From contig NZ_QOHF01000014.1 of NCBI RefSeq assembly GCF_003319115.1, positions 1 to 64,000 on the forward strand: DNA of 64,000 nucleotides. The letters run 5' to 3'. The stretch's first letter is position 1; every line of letters starts with the position of its first letter. The notes beneath the pieces are model-generated. The model made no database searches and was not told the DNA's origin. It saw only the letters and a list, made by a program, of their open reading frames with translations. Shown here piece by piece: positions 2,446 to 55,896 of this stretch. The translations under genes were made by a program, and so were the position numbers. This DNA is from Geodermatophilus sp. TF02-6. Its GTDB lineage: Bacteria > Actinomycetota > Actinomycetes > Mycobacteriales > Geodermatophilaceae.

Positions 2446-2508
2446 ATGAACCCACCCCACGAAAACGCTCCGCTGGCGCTCCACGTTTCCGCGGGGACCC
2501 CGGGATGA
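2446..2508 (+). CDS. 20-residue micro-ORF translationally coupled to pcrA
   Basis: ATG at 2446 opens a 20-codon frame beginning MNPPHENAPLALHV and ending AGTPG. Its TGA (2506-2508) overlaps the pcrA ATG (2505-2507) as ATGA. A near relative of the same length, beginning MSPIHDDAPPALHV, sits between two permease genes at 30828-30890, and a longer composite relative lies at 29423-29593. Because pcrA has no independent Shine-Dalgarno sequence, ribosomes probably reach it by reinitiation after this ORF. Whether the peptide itself has a role is unknown. Confidence 0.55.
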   Translation: MNPPHENAPLALHVSAGTPG

Positions 2509-29426: not shown

Positions 29427-29593
29427 GAACTCCCCACGAAGCCACCCCACAACGCCACCCCACGACGTTGCTCCGCTTCGCTCCACAACGTCGCAGGGAC
29501 CCCGGCCGTTGCTCCGCTCCGCTCCACAACGCCGCGGGGACCCCGGCAGACGCTCCGCTGGCGCGCCACGTCCCCGCGGGGGCCCCGAGATGA
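29423..29593 (+). CDS. 56-codon linker ORF coupled at both ends (ATPase to permease)
   Basis: ATG 29423 overlaps the ATPase stop, and the TGA at 29591-29593 overlaps the permease ATG at 29590, so it is ATGA-joined on both sides. The product begins MRTPHEATPQRHP and ends DAPLARHVPAGAPR, echoing the shorter micro-ORFs at 2446 and 30828. Internally the DNA holds three degenerate copies of a unit containing CTCCGCT...CTCCACAACG...GGGACCCCGG, so it looks like an expanded version. Composition is Arg/Pro/His-rich with no fold. A coupling role seems likelier than a protein function. Confidence 0.45.
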   Translation: MRTPHEATPQRHPTTLLRFAPQRRRDPGRCSAPLHNAAGTPADAPLARHVPAGAPR

Positions 29594-30831
29594 GGGTGCT
29601 GCGCCGTCTCGGGCCGACCGTCCTGGCCCCGGTGCTGGCCGTCGTCGTCGCGGTCGTCATCTCCGCACTGGTCATGGCCGCCCTGCGGGTCGACCCGCTG
29701 CGGGTGTTCGCGGTGATGGTCGACTTCGGCGACACCCCCACTCAGCAGATGACCGCGGTCGTGGTGGTCCTCAACCGGGCGGTCCCGCTGTTCCTCGCCG
29801 GCCTGGCGGTCGCCGTGGCGTTCCGCATGGGCCTGTTCAACATCGGCGTCGAGGGCCAGTACCGGCTGGCGACGGTCATGGCCGCCGCGGTCGGCGCCGC
29901 GGTGGCGCTGCCCGGCCCCCTGCACGTGCTGCTCATCGTCGTCGTGGCCATGGCCGTCGCGGCGATCTGGGCCGGCATCGTCGCCGTCCTCAAGGTGACC
30001 CGCGGGGTCAGCGAGGTCATCAGCTCGATCATGCTCAACTTCATCGCGCTGGGCATCGCGTCGTTCCTGCTCACCGGGCCGTTCCGGGGCAGCCCCGAGG
30101 GCGCGTCGATCATCAGCACCGCGGAGATCCCCCGCTCCGGGTGGATGCCCGGCCTCAACGGGGTGTTCGGCCTGCTGGGCCTGGCCGACCCGCCGCGGCA
30201 GCTCTACGGCTTCCTGCTGGTCGCGATCGTGGTCGGCGTCGGCATCGCCGTGCTGCTGGGCCGCACCCGCTTCGGCTTCGACCTGCGGGCCACCGGCCTG
30301 TCGCCCTCGGCGGCGCAGGCCAGCGGCGTCGACTCCCGCGGCATGGTGGTCAAGACGATGCTGCTCTCCGGCGCCGTCGCCGGGCTGATCGGCATGCCCG
30401 ACCTGCTGGGCGCGACGCACGCCTACACCACCGACTTCACCTCCGGCCTGGGCTTCCTCGGCATCGCGGTGGCGCTGCTGGGCCGCAACTCACCCGTGGG
30501 CATCGCGCTGGCCGCGCTGCTGTTCGCCTTCCTCGACCGGGCGCTGGTGCCGCTGCAGATCGCCCAGTACCCGGCCTCGGTCATCACGATCATCCAGGGC
30601 ACGATCGTGCTCGCCGTCGTGGTCTCCAACGAGGTGGCCCGCCGGATCGCGCTGCGCTCGGCCGAGCGGGGCGGCGCGGCACCGGCCGTCGCCGCGGCGA
30701 CCGGGGACGGCAGCACCGGTCCCGGCCAGACGGCGGACGGCGCGGCGGTGGGCACCGGCGCCGGCGTCGGCCGCACCGCGGGCGCCGGGCAGCAGACGAC
30801 GACCGACGCGCGGCAGGAGACCGGGGCATGA
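29590..30831 (+). CDS. Nucleoside ABC importer permease, subunit 1
   Basis: A 413-residue BPD_transp_2-type inner-membrane permease with about nine or ten helices. Family marks are FRMGLFNIGVEGQYRLATV, the cytoplasmic coupling segment near TRGVSEVISSIMLNFIA and the GLSPSAAQASGVDSRGMV loop. The last 60 residues are a Gly/Thr/Ala-rich tail. It pairs with the next gene to form the channel. ATG 29590 is fused by ATGA to the preceding linker ORF. An in-frame upstream start exists but would run through repeat sequence. Confidence 0.92.
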   Translation: MRVLRRLGPTVLAPVLAVVVAVVISALVMAALRVDPLRVFAVMVDFGDTPTQQMTAVVVVLNRAVPLFLAGLAVAVAFRMGLFNIGVEGQYRLATVMAAAVGAAVALPGPLHVLLIVVVAMAVAAIWAGIVAVLKVTRGVSEVISSIMLNFIALGIASFLLTGPFRGSPEGASIISTAEIPRSGWMPGLNGVFGLLGLADPPRQLYGFLLVAIVVGVGIAVLLGRTRFGFDLRATGLSPSAAQASGVDSRGMVVKTMLLSGAVAGLIGMPDLLGATHAYTTDFTSGLGFLGIAVALLGRNSPVGIALAALLFAFLDRALVPLQIAQYPASVITIIQGTIVLAVVVSNEVARRIALRSAERGGAAPAVAAATGDGSTGPGQTADGAAVGTGAGVGRTAGAGQQTTTDARQETGA

Positions 30832-30890
30832 GCCCGATCCACGACGACGCCCCGCCGGCACTCCACGTCCCCGCGGGGGCCCCGGCATGA
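30828..30890 (+). CDS. 20-residue micro-ORF between the two permease genes
   Basis: ATG 30828 overlaps the stop of permease 1 and the TGA at 30888-30890 overlaps the ATG of permease 2, so both junctions are ATGA. It encodes exactly 20 residues beginning MSPIHDDAPPALHV and ending AGAPA. It aligns without gaps with the pcrA micro-ORF: both have M-x-P-x-H at 1-5, A-P at 8-9, A-L-H-V at 11-14 and A-G-x-P at 16-19. Confidence 0.5.
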   Translation: MSPIHDDAPPALHVPAGAPA

Positions 30891-40637: not shown

Positions 40638-41504
40638 CTACAGCCCGATCGGATGCCAGACGGTCTTTGTCTCCAGGAACGGCGTCAGCCGGGACAGTCC
40701 CGGGTCCGCGGTCCAGTCCGGCTCCTCCGCGGGTGGGCGCAGCACCCGCTTGACGCTGCCGGCGGCCAGGCGTTCGAGCTCCATCGCCTGCCCGGCGGGG
40801 GCGCCGGTGAGGTCGACGGCGTCGACGTCGTCGTGCTCGGCCAGCCACGGGCCGATCTCGCCGGCGTCCCCGGTGAGCAGGTTGGCCACCCCGCCGGGGA
40901 CGTCGCTGGTGGCCAGCACCTCGCCGAGGGTGACCGCGGGCAGCGGCCGGTTCCGCGACGTGACGACGACGGCGGTGTTGCCGCCGGCCAGCACCGGGGC
41001 GAGCACGCTGACCAGGCCGAGCAGCGAGGAGCGCTGCGGCGCGAGGACGGCGACGACGCCGGTGGGCTCGGGCAGCGAGAAGTCGACGTACGGGCCGGCG
41101 ACCGGGTTGACCCCGCCGAGGACCGCGGCGAGCTTGTCGGTCCACCCGGCGTACCAGACCCAGCGGTCGACGGCGGCGTCGACGGCGGCGCGGGCCTTCG
41201 ACGTCGACAGCCCCTCCAGCGCCGCGACCTCCTCGCAGAACTGCGCGGACCGGCCCTCCATCACCTCGGCGACCCGGTAGAGGACCTGGCCGCGGTTGTA
41301 GGCGGTGGCTCCCGACCACTTCGGGAACGCGGCGCGGGCGGCGACGACGGCGTCCCGGGCGTCCTTGCGGGAGGCGCGGGCGACGTTGGCCAGGAAGGAG
41401 CCCCGGGCATCGGTGACCTCGTAGGTGCGCCCCGACTCCGAGCGCGGGAAGGCCCCGTTCACGTAGAGCTTGTAGGTCTTGCGGACCGAGAGCCGCTCGC
41501 TCAC
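40638..41504 (-). CDS. Aldehyde dehydrogenase-like protein without catalytic domain
   Basis: A 288-residue protein matching only the N-terminal (NAD-binding) part of aldehyde dehydrogenases: LYVNGAFPRSESGRTYEV, AFPKWSGATAYNRGQVLYR, VAVLAPQRSSLLGLVSVLAPVLAGGN in parts, and GGVANLLTGDAGEIGPWLAEH. Full enzymes have about 480 residues. The ELGGK Glu and the catalytic Cys are absent; only a D-A-VDLTGAPAGQAMELE stretch marks where the active-site half should begin. It overlaps the complete aldehyde dehydrogenase by GTGA. Similar short partners beside deoC occur, as I recall, in other Actinobacteria, so it may be a structural or regulatory partner rather than debris. Confidence 0.8.
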   Translation of the reverse strand: MSERLSVRKTYKLYVNGAFPRSESGRTYEVTDARGSFLANVARASRKDARDAVVAARAAFPKWSGATAYNRGQVLYRVAEVMEGRSAQFCEEVAALEGLSTSKARAAVDAAVDRWVWYAGWTDKLAAVLGGVNPVAGPYVDFSLPEPTGVVAVLAPQRSSLLGLVSVLAPVLAGGNTAVVVTSRNRPLPAVTLGEVLATSDVPGGVANLLTGDAGEIGPWLAEHDDVDAVDLTGAPAGQAMELERLAAGSVKRVLRPPAEEPDWTADPGLSRLTPFLETKTVWHPIGL

Positions 41505-42955
41505 CGGGCCTCCTTCAGGTAGGCGGCCAGCCCGACTCGTCCGCCCTCGCGGCCGTAGCCGGACTGCTTGTAGCCGCCGAAGGGCGACGTCGGGTCGAAC
41601 CGGTTGAACGTGTTGGCCCACACCACCCCGGCGCGCAGCCGGTCGGCGATCGCCAGGATCCGCGAGCCCTTCTCGCTCCAGATGCCGGCCGACAGCCCGT
41701 AGGTGGTGTTGTTCGCCTTGGCCACCGCCTCGTCGGGCGTGCGGAAGGTGAGCACCGACAGCACCGGCCCGAACACCTCGTCGCGGGCGATGCGGTGCGC
41801 GGGGGAGACGTCGGTGAACACCGTCGGCGGGAACCAGAAGCCGCGCTCGGGCAGCTCGCAGGCCGGCTGCCAGCGCTGCGCGCCCTCGGCCTCGCCGATG
41901 TCCACCAGCTCCCGGATCCGCGCCAGTTGCAGGTGCGAGTTGATCGCGCCGATGTCGGTGTTCTTGTCCAGCGGGTCGCCCAGGCGCAGCGTGCCGATCC
42001 GCCGCTGCAGCGAGGCGACCACCTCGTCGTGGACGTCCTCCTGCACCAGCAGCCGGGAGCCGGCGCAGCACACGTGCCCCTGGTTGGAGAAGATGCCGAG
42101 CACGATGCCCTCGACGGCCTGGTCGATCGGGGCGTCGTCGAAGACGATGTTCGCCGCCTTGCCGCCCAGCTCGAGGGTCAGCTTCTTCCGGGTGCCCGCG
42201 ACCGCGCGGGCGATGGACTTGCCGACCTCGGTGGAGCCGGTGAACGCCACCTTGTCAACGTCCTCGTGCTCGACGACGGCCCGGCCGGTGTCGCCGGCGC
42301 CGGTCACGATGTTGACCACGCCGGGCGGCAGGTCGGCCTGCCGGCACACCTCGGCGAACAGCAGCGCGGTCAGCGGGGTGGTCTCGGCCGGCTTGAGGAC
42401 CACGGTGTTGCCGGTCGCCAGCGCCGGGGCGACCTTCCAGGCCAGCATCAGCAGCGGGAAGTTCCACGGGATGACCTGCCCGGCCACGCCCAGCGGCCTC
42501 GGGCCCGGCCCGAGGCCGGCCCAGTCGAGCTTGTCGGCCCAGCCCGCGTGGTAGAAGAAGTGCGCCGCGGCCAGGGGGACGTCGACGTCGCGGGACTCCC
42601 GGATCGGCTTGCCGTTGTCCAGCGACTCGAGGACGGCGAACTCCCGCGCCCGCTCCTGCAGCAGCCGGGCGATGCGGAACAGGTACTTGCCGCGGTCGGC
42701 CGGGCGCATCGGGCCCCAGGTCCTGGTGAACGCGCGGCGGGCGGCCTTGACCGCACGGTCGACGTCCTCGGCGGTGCCGGCGGCGACCTCGGAGAGGACC
42801 TCCTCGGTGGCCGGGTCGACCGTCGTGAACGGCGTCCCGGAGCCGTCGACGAACTCGCCGTCGACGAACAGGCCGTAGGACGGCGCGATGTCGACGATCG
42901 AACGCGACTCGGGGGCGGGGGCGTACTCGAAGGGGCTGGGCGGGGCGGTCGTCAC
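41501..42955 (-). CDS. Aldehyde dehydrogenase
   Basis: A 484-residue NAD(P)-dependent aldehyde dehydrogenase. The motifs are complete: PWNFPLLMLAWKVAPALA with the oxyanion Asn, GNTVVLKPAETTP, FTGSTEVGKSI, the general base E262 in LELGGKAANIVF and the nucleophile C296 in NQGHVCCAGSR. Encoded with deoC, it may oxidise the acetaldehyde released from deoxyribose-5-phosphate; that substrate is inferred from context. GTG 42955 begins one base after the stop of the third tandem micro-ORF, and no separate Shine-Dalgarno sequence is obvious, which favours translational coupling. Confidence 0.94.
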   Translation of the reverse strand: MTTAPPSPFEYAPAPESRSIVDIAPSYGLFVDGEFVDGSGTPFTTVDPATEEVLSEVAAGTAEDVDRAVKAARRAFTRTWGPMRPADRGKYLFRIARLLQERAREFAVLESLDNGKPIRESRDVDVPLAAAHFFYHAGWADKLDWAGLGPGPRPLGVAGQVIPWNFPLLMLAWKVAPALATGNTVVLKPAETTPLTALLFAEVCRQADLPPGVVNIVTGAGDTGRAVVEHEDVDKVAFTGSTEVGKSIARAVAGTRKKLTLELGGKAANIVFDDAPIDQAVEGIVLGIFSNQGHVCCAGSRLLVQEDVHDEVVASLQRRIGTLRLGDPLDKNTDIGAINSHLQLARIRELVDIGEAEGAQRWQPACELPERGFWFPPTVFTDVSPAHRIARDEVFGPVLSVLTFRTPDEAVAKANNTTYGLSAGIWSEKGSRILAIADRLRAGVVWANTFNRFDPTSPFGGYKQSGYGREGGRVGLAAYLKEAR

Positions 42956-42956
42956 G

Positions 42957-43152
42957 TCAGTCCACCGTCACGTGGTCGGGGGCGGAGGGGTGGGGGGCGG
43001 CCGTGACCGCGGGCCCGGCCATCAGTCGACACTCACGTGGTCGGGGGCGGAGGGGTGGGGGACGGCCGTGACCGCGGGCCCGGCCATCAGTCGACACTCA
43101 CGTGGTCGGGGCCGGAGGGGTGGGGGACGGCCGTGACCGCGGGCCCGGCCAT
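42957..43152 (-). repeat. Three tandem 65-bp units encoding chained 21-residue micro-ORFs
   Basis: After the deoC stop on the minus strand, a 65-bp unit is repeated three times. Each unit encodes a 21-codon ORF beginning MAGPAVTA and ending SGPDHVSVD, SAPDHVSVD or SAPDHVTVD (ORFs at 43087-43152, 43022-43087 and 42957-43022). Each ATG overlaps the previous stop as TGATG, the first one overlapping the deoC stop. The ends copy the deoC C-terminus (YSGPDHVSVD), so the array grew by duplicating the deoC 3' end. The unit length of 65 fits a one-base step back at each TGATG. The last stop is one base from the aldehyde dehydrogenase GTG. Confidence 0.85.
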
Positions 43153-44147
43153 CAGTCGACACTCACGTGGTCGGGGCCGGAGTAGTGGCCGCTGTGCAGC
43201 TTCTGCCGCTGCAACAGCAGGTCGTTCAGCAGGCCGGACGCGCCGAAGCGGAACCGCTCGGGGGAGAGCCAGTCCGGGCCGGCGACCTCGTTGACCAGCA
43301 CCAGGTGCCGGATCGCGTCCTTCGTCGTCCGGATACCGCCGGCGGGCTTGACGCCGACCTGGCGGCCGGTGGCGGCGCGGAAGTCGCGGACCGCCTCCAT
43401 CATCACGAGGCAGACCGGCAGGGTGGCCGCGGGCGAGATCTTGCCGGTGGAGGTCTTGATGAAGTCGCCGCCGGCGAGCATCGCCAGGCAGGAGGCCCGC
43501 CGGACGTTGTCGAGGGTGACCAGCTCGCCGGTCTCGAGGATCACCTTCAGGTGGGCGTCCCCGCAGGTCTCCTTGACCGCGACGATCTCGTCGTACACGT
43601 CGAGGTACCTGCCCGCGAGGAAGGCGCCGCGGTCGATGACCATGTCGATCTCGTCCGCGCCGCCCGCCACGGCGTCGCGGACGTCGGCGAGCTTCACCGC
43701 CCGGCTGGCCCGGCCGCTGGGGAACGCGGTGGCGACGGCGGCGGTGTGGATGCCGGTGCCCTCCAGCGCCTTGCGTGCGACGCCGGCCAGGTCGCCGTAG
43801 ACGCAGACCGCGGCGACCTGCGGGCAGGACGGGTCGGTGGGGTCGGGCTGCTTCGCCTTCGCGGCCAGCGAGCGGACCTTGCCCGGGGTGTCCGCGCCCT
43901 CGAGCGTGGTGAGGTCGACCATCGAGATGGCGGTGTCGATCGCCCAGGCCTTGGCGGTGGTCTTGATCGACCGGGTGGCGAGCACGCCGACCCGCGCCTC
44001 GGCGCCGACCTGGTCGACACCCGGCAGGCCGTGCAGGAAGGCGCGGAGGGCGGCGTCGGACCGCGTCACGTCGCTGAACGGCGCCGGGGGCTCGGGCCGC
44101 AGCGGAGCCCCGGCGGACAGCGCGTCGGGGTCGAGCACGTGGGTCAT
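43152..44147 (-). CDS. deoC: Deoxyribose-phosphate aldolase
   Basis: A 331-residue class I aldolase splitting 2-deoxyribose-5-phosphate to glyceraldehyde-3-phosphate and acetaldehyde. The Schiff-base Lys is K231 in GGDFIKTSTGK, with D169 (DEIDMVIDRGAF) and K267 (VGVKPAGGIR) completing the site. It is longer than E. coli DeoC (about 260) because of a 60-residue N-terminal extension, common in Actinobacteria. ATG 44147 was chosen since it overlaps the methyltransferase stop as ATGA; ATG 44156 is three codons further out. It receives deoxyribose phosphate derived from the deoA and punA reactions. Confidence 0.95.
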   Translation of the reverse strand: MTHVLDPDALSAGAPLRPEPPAPFSDVTRSDAALRAFLHGLPGVDQVGAEARVGVLATRSIKTTAKAWAIDTAISMVDLTTLEGADTPGKVRSLAAKAKQPDPTDPSCPQVAAVCVYGDLAGVARKALEGTGIHTAAVATAFPSGRASRAVKLADVRDAVAGGADEIDMVIDRGAFLAGRYLDVYDEIVAVKETCGDAHLKVILETGELVTLDNVRRASCLAMLAGGDFIKTSTGKISPAATLPVCLVMMEAVRDFRAATGRQVGVKPAGGIRTTKDAIRHLVLVNEVAGPDWLSPERFRFGASGLLNDLLLQRQKLHSGHYSGPDHVSVD

Positions 44148-49035: not shown

Positions 49036-49105
49036 AGAGCCGGCAGTGCACGGAGAGAGCCGGCAGTGCACGGAGAGAGCCGGCAGTGCACGGAGAGAGC
49101 CGGCA
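49036..49105. repeat. 20-bp tandem repeat, three full copies
   Basis: CGGCAGTGCACGGAGAGAGC occurs three times without change at 49041-49060, 49061-49080 and 49081-49100, flanked by partial units. It lies between the HAD and lipoprotein genes, in the leader of the latter. There are no spacers, so this is not a CRISPR array. Confidence 0.9.
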
Positions 49106-55537: not shown

Positions 55538-55896
55538 CCGCCGGCCGCCGGGGCAGGCGGCGGCCACCTCTCAGGGGCCCGCTGGCCTCCCTGCAGGGTC
55601 CCGCCGCGAGCGTGCGAGTGGCGGGGGGCAGGGAGGTCCTCTTCCGAGGCGTGGGGAGAGAGGTGTGGCCCCCTTGCAGGTAGAAGGACCCCCTCCTGCC
55701 CACCCCTCGCACGCTCGGGGCGGTGCCCGGGAGGGGGCCTGGCGCGAGCTCGCGAGCGGTGGGGGGCAAGCGGCCACCTCTCAGGGGCCCGCGCCGAGCT
55801 CGCGAGGCGTGGGAAGAGAGGTGTGGCCCCCTTGCAGGGTCCCGCCGAGAGCTTGCGAGCGGTGGGGGGCAAGGGGGTCCTCTTAGACTCCCCGAG
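55538..55896. repeat. Cluster of family A repeats with a duplicated flanking block
   Basis: Noncoding, 359 bases. Three family A hairpins have outer stems 55586-55594/55628-55636, 55689-55696/55730-55737 and 55827-55835/55869-55877, each with a different but paired sequence. Between them, a 21-bp block (55561-55581 and 55771-55791) and a block containing AGAGAGGTGTGGCCCCCTTG (near 55656 and 55813) occur twice, so a larger unit has been duplicated. The promoter of the next gene begins right after the last hairpin. Confidence 0.8.
55884..55889 (+). promoter_or_regulatory. -10 element (TAGACT) of the YbdK-type ligase
   Basis: TAGACT lies 7 bases before GTG 55897 and 6 bases after the last repeat arm. 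Confidence 0.65.

Follow-up and report, generated by a model that had tools for sequence, protein, structure and literature searches.

A tandem array of overlapping micro-ORFs between deoC and an aldehyde dehydrogenase gene in Geodermatophilus, a candidate MIRU-like translational relay

Three 65-bp units at the deoC junction

The DNA analysed here, referred to below as the window, is a 64,000-nucleotide stretch of a contig of Geodermatophilus sp. TF02-6 (NZ_QOHF01000014.1, positions 1 to 64,000; genome G000 in our set). On its minus strand, three copies of a 65-bp unit (43154-42960) separate deoC from an aldehyde dehydrogenase (ALDH) gene, and the features of this junction are the following:

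43152..44147, minus strand: deoC (deoxyribose-phosphate aldolase), 331 codons, ending in YSGPDHVSVD and a stop; read from the sequence, with Pfam DeoC (PF01791, E=4e-19) on 43155-44138
42957..43182, minus strand: 65-bp tandem array, made up of the three units and the deoC tail that they copy; TRF score 410
43087..43152, minus strand: micro-ORF 1, MAGPAVTAVPHPSGPDHVSVD and a stop, its ATG over the deoC stop (TGATG); read from the sequence
43022..43087, minus strand: micro-ORF 2, MAGPAVTAVPHPSAPDHVSVD and a stop, its ATG over the stop of micro-ORF 1 (TGATG); read from the sequence
42957..43022, minus strand: micro-ORF 3, MAGPAVTAAPHPSAPDHVTVD and a stop, its ATG over the stop of micro-ORF 2 (TGATG); read from the sequence
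41501..42955, minus strand: ALDH gene, GTG start at 42955; Pfam Aldedh (PF00171, E=3e-159)

An earlier note on this DNA had described three 65-bp units, each with a 21-codon ORF, and this description is borne out by TRF, by the count of a 31-mer of the unit (three occurrences in the window versus none in shuffles) and by reading the minus strand. The TRF entry (42957-43182; period 65, 3.5 copies, 96% matches) is the highest-scoring of the 56 rows obtained for the window. Pairwise, the three units differ at 1, 4 and 5 of their 65 bases, which indicates at least three real copies, and this number is a lower bound since short-read assembly could have collapsed additional units. Also in agreement with the earlier note, the last unit, on the ALDH side, is the most diverged. 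Elsewhere the window holds a perfect 20-bp tandem repeat of 3.5 copies (AGAGCCGGCAGTGCACGGAG, 49036-49105) and a diverged 53-bp repeat of 2.7 copies with GCGAGCTCGCGAGC-like inverted repeats (55734-55873).

The deoC stop (TGA, 43154-43152) overlaps the ATG of micro-ORF 1 at 43152, and with the two steps that follow this makes three 1-nt overlaps in succession. The proposed TGATG at every step holds for these three; the fourth, from micro-ORF 3 to ALDH, reads TGA-C-GTG and leaves a 1-nt gap. Upstream, the deoC ATG overlaps the stop of a preceding methyltransferase-like ORF as ATGA, and downstream the ALDH stop overlaps the start of the next ALDH-family gene as GTGA. Micro-ORFs 1 and 2 end like DeoC itself, in PDHVSVD, while micro-ORF 3 ends in PDHVTVD. 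The idea that the units grew from the deoC stop accounts for 27 of the 65 bp, which copy the deoC tail, but not for the other 38 bp, for which no source was detected. An old ALDH leader was considered as a source of this 38-bp part and rejected, its alignment to 94 ALDH leaders being no better than shuffled (P 0.87).

The junction and its unit among relatives

At E 1e-60, 102 of the 112 family genomes gave a DeoC hit, and 99 junctions were retrieved, partial DeoC hits in G042, G058 and G068 being left out of the set. With one junction (G084) lying at a contig edge, 98 were read, 94 tabulated by script and four by eye (G017, G035, G040 and G070). In 92 of these 98 (88 of the 94 scripted plus the four read by eye) the distance from the deoC stop to the ALDH start is −1 to +15 nt and there is no micro-ORF; TGATG itself occurs at 27 of the 94 scripted junctions. 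The remaining six, with spacers of 13, 13, 67, 67, 71 and 196 nt, each contain a micro-ORF that ends between 2 nt before and 4 nt into the ALDH start. Three of them bear the unit (196 nt in G000, 67 nt in both G001 and G020). The 71-nt spacer of G066 (L122), from a genome that is 81% complete, holds a 13-codon micro-ORF (MSSDDALFSVEEP and a stop) that starts 33 nt past the deoC stop and lies with ATGA over the ALDH start, and the 13-nt spacers of G002 (L026) and G065 (L104) hold an identical 4-codon micro-ORF (TGATGGGGACCGACTGATG; MGTD and a stop). These last two genomes represent two genera; their deoC ends in SID in both, and by flank sequence neither ranks among the eight closest to the other.

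Every spacer longer than 15 nt is bridged by a micro-ORF (4/4), with two origins, three of the four sharing the unit; in G069, with a 15-nt spacer, a micro-ORF is absent. Bridging on its own is, however, weak evidence for a relay. With ATG starts, shuffled spacers were bridged by chance at a frequency of 0.32 (G001), 0.41 (G020) and 0.40 (G000), rising to 0.59-0.79 for the unit-bearer spacers when ATG or GTG was allowed; the 13-nt spacers reached about 0.95, and the lowest value was that of G066 (0.057, or 0.28 with GTG). Taking a stop/start overlap or a distance of up to about 15 nt as the range for coupling, we find three steps of the window's array at −1 nt and one at +1 nt.

Among 26 Geodermatophilus genomes the unit is present three times in G000, once each in G001 and G020, and not at all in 23. 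A scan of genome contigs with a 26-base unit pattern, possibly run without records from or close to the window's genome, matched Geodermatophilus africanus DSM 45422 and Geodermatophilus sp. DF01-2. A second unit site was found nowhere in the 26 genus genomes, which gave short part matches elsewhere. The window genome yielded nothing outside the deoC-ALDH junction except one 37-bp match at 84%, the 112 family genomes (seven candidates scored per genome) gave short part matches alone elsewhere, and plasmids gave nothing. In an order-wide sample of 397 genomes without G001 and G020, the exact pattern occurs in G000 alone (three places), and other places with two or three mismatches number 15, versus 10 for a control pattern.

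At the deoC side the overlap is TGATG in all three unit-bearers. Their ALDH-side ends differ: there is a 1-nt gap in G000 (TGACGTG), a 2-nt gap in G020, whose unit ends as TGACCATG, and a 4-nt overlap in G001 (CAGCCATGA), where the unit has lost its own TGA and its frame continues for two codons to a TGA that overlaps the ALDH ATG as ATGA.

The three unit-bearers very likely go back to a single shared origin, and they are therefore not independent cases. Each of them adjoins unit-free genomes in the tree, 10 of whose 23 inner branches are open, and an AU test speaks against grouping the carriers in a single clade (p-AU 0.027). A TCAGGG variant just 5' of the unit is common to G001 and G020 alone (2/95), the last 120 nt of G020 deoC are nearest to G001 (0.933), and one window of G000 deoC is nearest to G020; apart from this, no consistent affinity between carriers is seen in the flanks. 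Both vertical inheritance with losses and short-tract transfer could account for this distribution. The final 21 nt of micro-ORF 3, GACCACGTGACGGTGGACTGA, are identical to the deoC end of G014, the sister of G000 in the tree (support 98/93), and the present end of G000's own deoC is AGTGTCGAC. Within the genus the GACCACGTGACGGTGGACTGA ending belongs to G014 alone among the genomes tabulated; it is also found in G034 and G111, of other genera. A G014-type deoC end on the last unit suggests that units were gained or lost through recombination between deoC-tail copies, and either an insertion into the array or an excision from it would yield such a unit.

With TGATG excluded, the 38-bp part shows 2 to 6 differences per 33 sites between species. 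Compared with the fourfold-site rates (0.21-0.25), it is slower between G000 and G020 (P 0.009 to 0.03), marginally so between G001 and G020 (P 0.06) and not so between G000 and G001 (P 0.13 to 0.25); relative to the average coding rate there is no slowing (P 0.43 to 0.97). These rates could reflect recent transfer, mild constraint or neither. That the 65 bp carry neither an indel nor an internal stop in three species would be in keeping with a functional 21-residue peptide, yet nonsynonymous changes predominate in the 38-bp part (4 of 5 between G000 and G001, by hand count), the C-terminal part is a DeoC copy and most of the genus (23/26) does without the unit. A functional peptide is accordingly highly improbable, and the micro-ORF peptides themselves are probably without function.

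Initiation signals and the passage of ribosomes

The main argument that the micro-ORF starts can be used comes from the relatives. Of 95 junctions, 16 contain the sequence GACCACGTGAGCGTCGACTGATG, and ALDH begins at its ATG in 14 of these; the start context of the window's micro-ORFs differs from this sequence by one base (AGT for AGC). Since what serves as the ALDH start context in 14 relatives is nearly the micro-ORF context, the micro-ORF ATGs may be usable as well.

The following course of events can be envisaged. In the family-typical state, ribosomes presumably finish deoC and restart immediately on ALDH. In part of the genus, a 65-bp unit, of 27 bp of deoC tail and 38 bp of other sequence and with a TGATG of its own, would have settled at this junction, and the window's junction now has three copies of it. 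Each unit begins on the preceding stop and runs up to the next start, so that a ribosome that has finished deoC could re-initiate on micro-ORFs 1, 2 and 3 and then on ALDH; the stop-start contact of each unit would allow it to proceed in this stepwise fashion. We infer from the sequence both that the micro-ORFs are translated and that ALDH is coupled to deoC through them.

The earlier note had proposed precisely such a relay of termination-reinitiation events, four in a row. In its favor are the direct junctions of the family, the bridged long spacers, the native TGATG context and the failure to find a promoter; register and bridging that could arise by chance, and an SD-like site at ALDH, speak against it. 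On balance, we consider a working ribosome relay at deoC-ALDH the likelier case, and we lean, with moderate confidence, toward the array being an intercistronic MIRU-like translational relay that was born at this locus.

The competing view is that of an inert tandem duplication, produced by slippage or unequal exchange, in which the micro-ORFs are accidental and ALDH is initiated de novo at its GTG via an SD-like GACGGTGG from a deoC-type tail. SD pairing energies, computed against the anti-SD sequence, are −3.0 kcal/mol at each micro-ORF start, which equals background (random median −3.2). The ALDH GTG, on the other hand, has an SD-like site of −6.3 kcal/mol 6 nt upstream, present also in unit-free G014, and 57 of 94 family ALDH starts lie at or below −6 as opposed to 22% of 800 random positions. 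With this site at ALDH and background-level pairing at the micro-ORFs, de novo initiation of ALDH is possible. The earlier note had named a promoter and ribosome-binding site of ALDH's own as what would refute the relay; the SD-like site comes close, but it does not amount to a promoter together with a strong site. Searches of about 0.6-0.8 kb around the array gave neither a sigma-70-type promoter nor a terminator nor an Rfam match. Also in favor of an inert duplication, a copied segment that spans TGATG stays in register for one length in three (2 mod 3), the bridging null with ATG starts is not small, the RNA fold of the array is no better than that of shuffles (z +1.3) and the 38-bp part, set against the average coding rate, shows no slowing. 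What an inert duplication does not readily accommodate is the bridging of all four long spacers, from two origins, and the slowness of the 38-bp part against fourfold sites in one species pair, marginal in a second and absent in the third. All in all, we regard it as rather unlikely, though deserving of serious consideration.

If ribosomes were lost at each re-initiation step, the number of units (0, 1 or 3) could set the ALDH:DeoC ratio, and the array would be a selected copy-number tuner. This is consistent with a unit number that varies between species while the deoC-side TGATG stays constant in the three unit-bearers. A repeat-length/expression correlation is also described in PMC2734929 for a mycobacterial intergenic repeat, but there it concerns the mRNA level and longer means more. 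Since there are three unit-bearers only and the last step is variable among them, selection as a tuner is improbable. It is more likely that the array, as a relay, has been kept because it is tolerated, and its persistence would probably be due mainly to its being harmless.

A dispersed element and its bearing on the array

A different repeat, a 59-bp insert with RTGA at its ends and a micro-ORF of 19-21 codons, typically (M/V)NxPHExAPLALHVSAGTPx and a stop, is dispersed over 11 loci in G000. In seven of these the micro-ORF between the RTGA ends is intact, namely on contigs C26, C13, C21 and C4 and at three places in the window:

2446..2508, plus strand: MNPPHENAPLALHVSAGTPG and a stop, TGA over the ATG of a UvrD/PcrA-type helicase gene (UvrD-helicase PF00580, E=7e-91), no long frame upstream; model R1, 75 bits
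29423..29593, plus strand: composite copy with internal 41-bp repeats and a 56-codon micro-ORF, which overlaps as ATGA both an upstream ABC ATPase gene and a downstream permease gene; TRF, model R1, ABC_tran, BPD_transp_2
30828..30890, plus strand: copy between two permease genes, MSPIHDDAPPALHVPAGAPA and a stop, ATGA at both ends; model R1, BPD_transp_2 on both sides

The internal 41-bp repeats (GTTGCTCCGCTCCGCTCCACAAC; window 29466-29559) recur on G000 contigs C14, C20 and C30, and the window's copy is a single open frame of 56 codons from ATGA to ATGA.

An alignment of twenty copies of the element has 63 columns and RTGA at either end. From 84 matches, two duplicate places and five under 50 model positions were dropped, leaving 77 near-full copies in three family groups. 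RTGA bounds 67 of these on the 5' side, 59 on the 3' side and 55 on both; 52 contain an intact linking micro-ORF, and 48 of the 52 are also flanked on both sides by open frames of at least 100 codons (80 at a locus end). For the 57 copies outside model building the corresponding numbers are 47, 39, 35, 32 and 30. At background RTGA sites in such loci, a comparably long frame lies upstream in 270 of 1197 and downstream in 514 of 1197. Intact ORFs measure 63 nt (38 copies) or 66 nt (1) in the window's family, 63 nt (2) or 66 nt (3) in f2 and 60 nt (8) in f10. Of 25 genus genomes, 9 carry an insert at the permease junction of the copy at 30828 and 16 do not; all nine inserts are 59 bp long and bounded on both sides by RTGA, and the unfilled sites have one ATGA or GTGA, so that here the element inserted exactly at the stop-start RTGA and gave the same kind of chain. 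We count the seven intact loci and this exact 59-bp filled/empty difference as support for the relay reading of the deoC array, in which the ATG-or-GTG null slightly lowers our confidence.

With model R1 the element turns up in 20 of the 26 genus genomes (E 0.01) and in 52 of 397 order genomes (E 0.001), the weak matches being doubtful. The deoC array gave no match to it up to E 10. In 40 f8 genomes (38 of genus g19) there are 21 part matches in 19 genomes (E 0.004-0.05), exceeding the 2 expected from rough E-values, and a diverged relation is possible.

Mycobacterial interspersed repetitive units (MIRUs) were reportedly introduced by Supply et al. in 1997. The ORF of a MIRU runs in the direction of the genes and overlaps the upstream ORF. 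According to two papers, MIRUs insert at start codons, with the MIRU ORF coupled at a −4 nt spacing (PMC12548453), and comprise units of 40-100 bp at 41 loci (PMC2734929). With its many loci, RTGA ends and linking micro-ORF, the dispersed element fits this description and looks like a non-mycobacterial MIRU-type element. The deoC array resembles MIRUs in having tandem copies whose number varies between species. It differs from them in residing at one locus rather than being dispersed, in copying 27 of its 65 bp from the upstream gene and in a deoC-side overlap of −1 (TGATG) in all three carriers instead of −4 (ATGA), the latter occurring only at the ALDH side of G001. The overlap that MIRUs have at both ends is found at the 5' end in 3/3 unit-bearers and at the 3' end in that one alone, the other two having gaps. 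As the array has the same outcome but neither the dispersal nor the −4 overlap, nor a demonstrated relation in sequence, we call it MIRU-like rather than a MIRU, by comparison with the MIRU description only.

Termination-reinitiation at TGATG or ATGA overlaps is described in PMC6728339 and PMC10666635 as single steps between gene pairs. In six pairs tested in the latter, an intergenic distance of about 20 nt nearly abolished it, while the review PMC12548453 also cites work where spacings up to +25 nt did not matter. Such gene pairs have the same overlap and a strong distance dependence; in the deoC array up to four steps would be taken via micro-ORFs. According to PMC13255528 and PMC12548453, a nonsense ORF beside a start can raise or carry translation, but the short ORF of PMC13255528 is synthetic and has a strong internal RBS, whereas the deoC array is natural, intercistronic and tandem, without a strong RBS. 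In the literature covered, which excluded most subscription papers, we found no report of such elements in Geodermatophilaceae.

It is conceivable, although we hold it to be unlikely, that two unrelated operon-internal repeats, the dispersed RTGA element and the 65-bp unit, have converged on a ribosome-handing micro-ORF and that the deoC array is a multi-step relay in which the number of units sets ALDH output.

A natural series of 0, 1 and 3 units at an otherwise direct junction, together with a unit-free sister, makes the cost of successive termination-reinitiation steps measurable. Collectively, the array and the dispersed element suggest that operons of these bacteria may more readily accept inserts that keep the stop-start chain, a kind of insert described for mycobacteria and seen here outside them.
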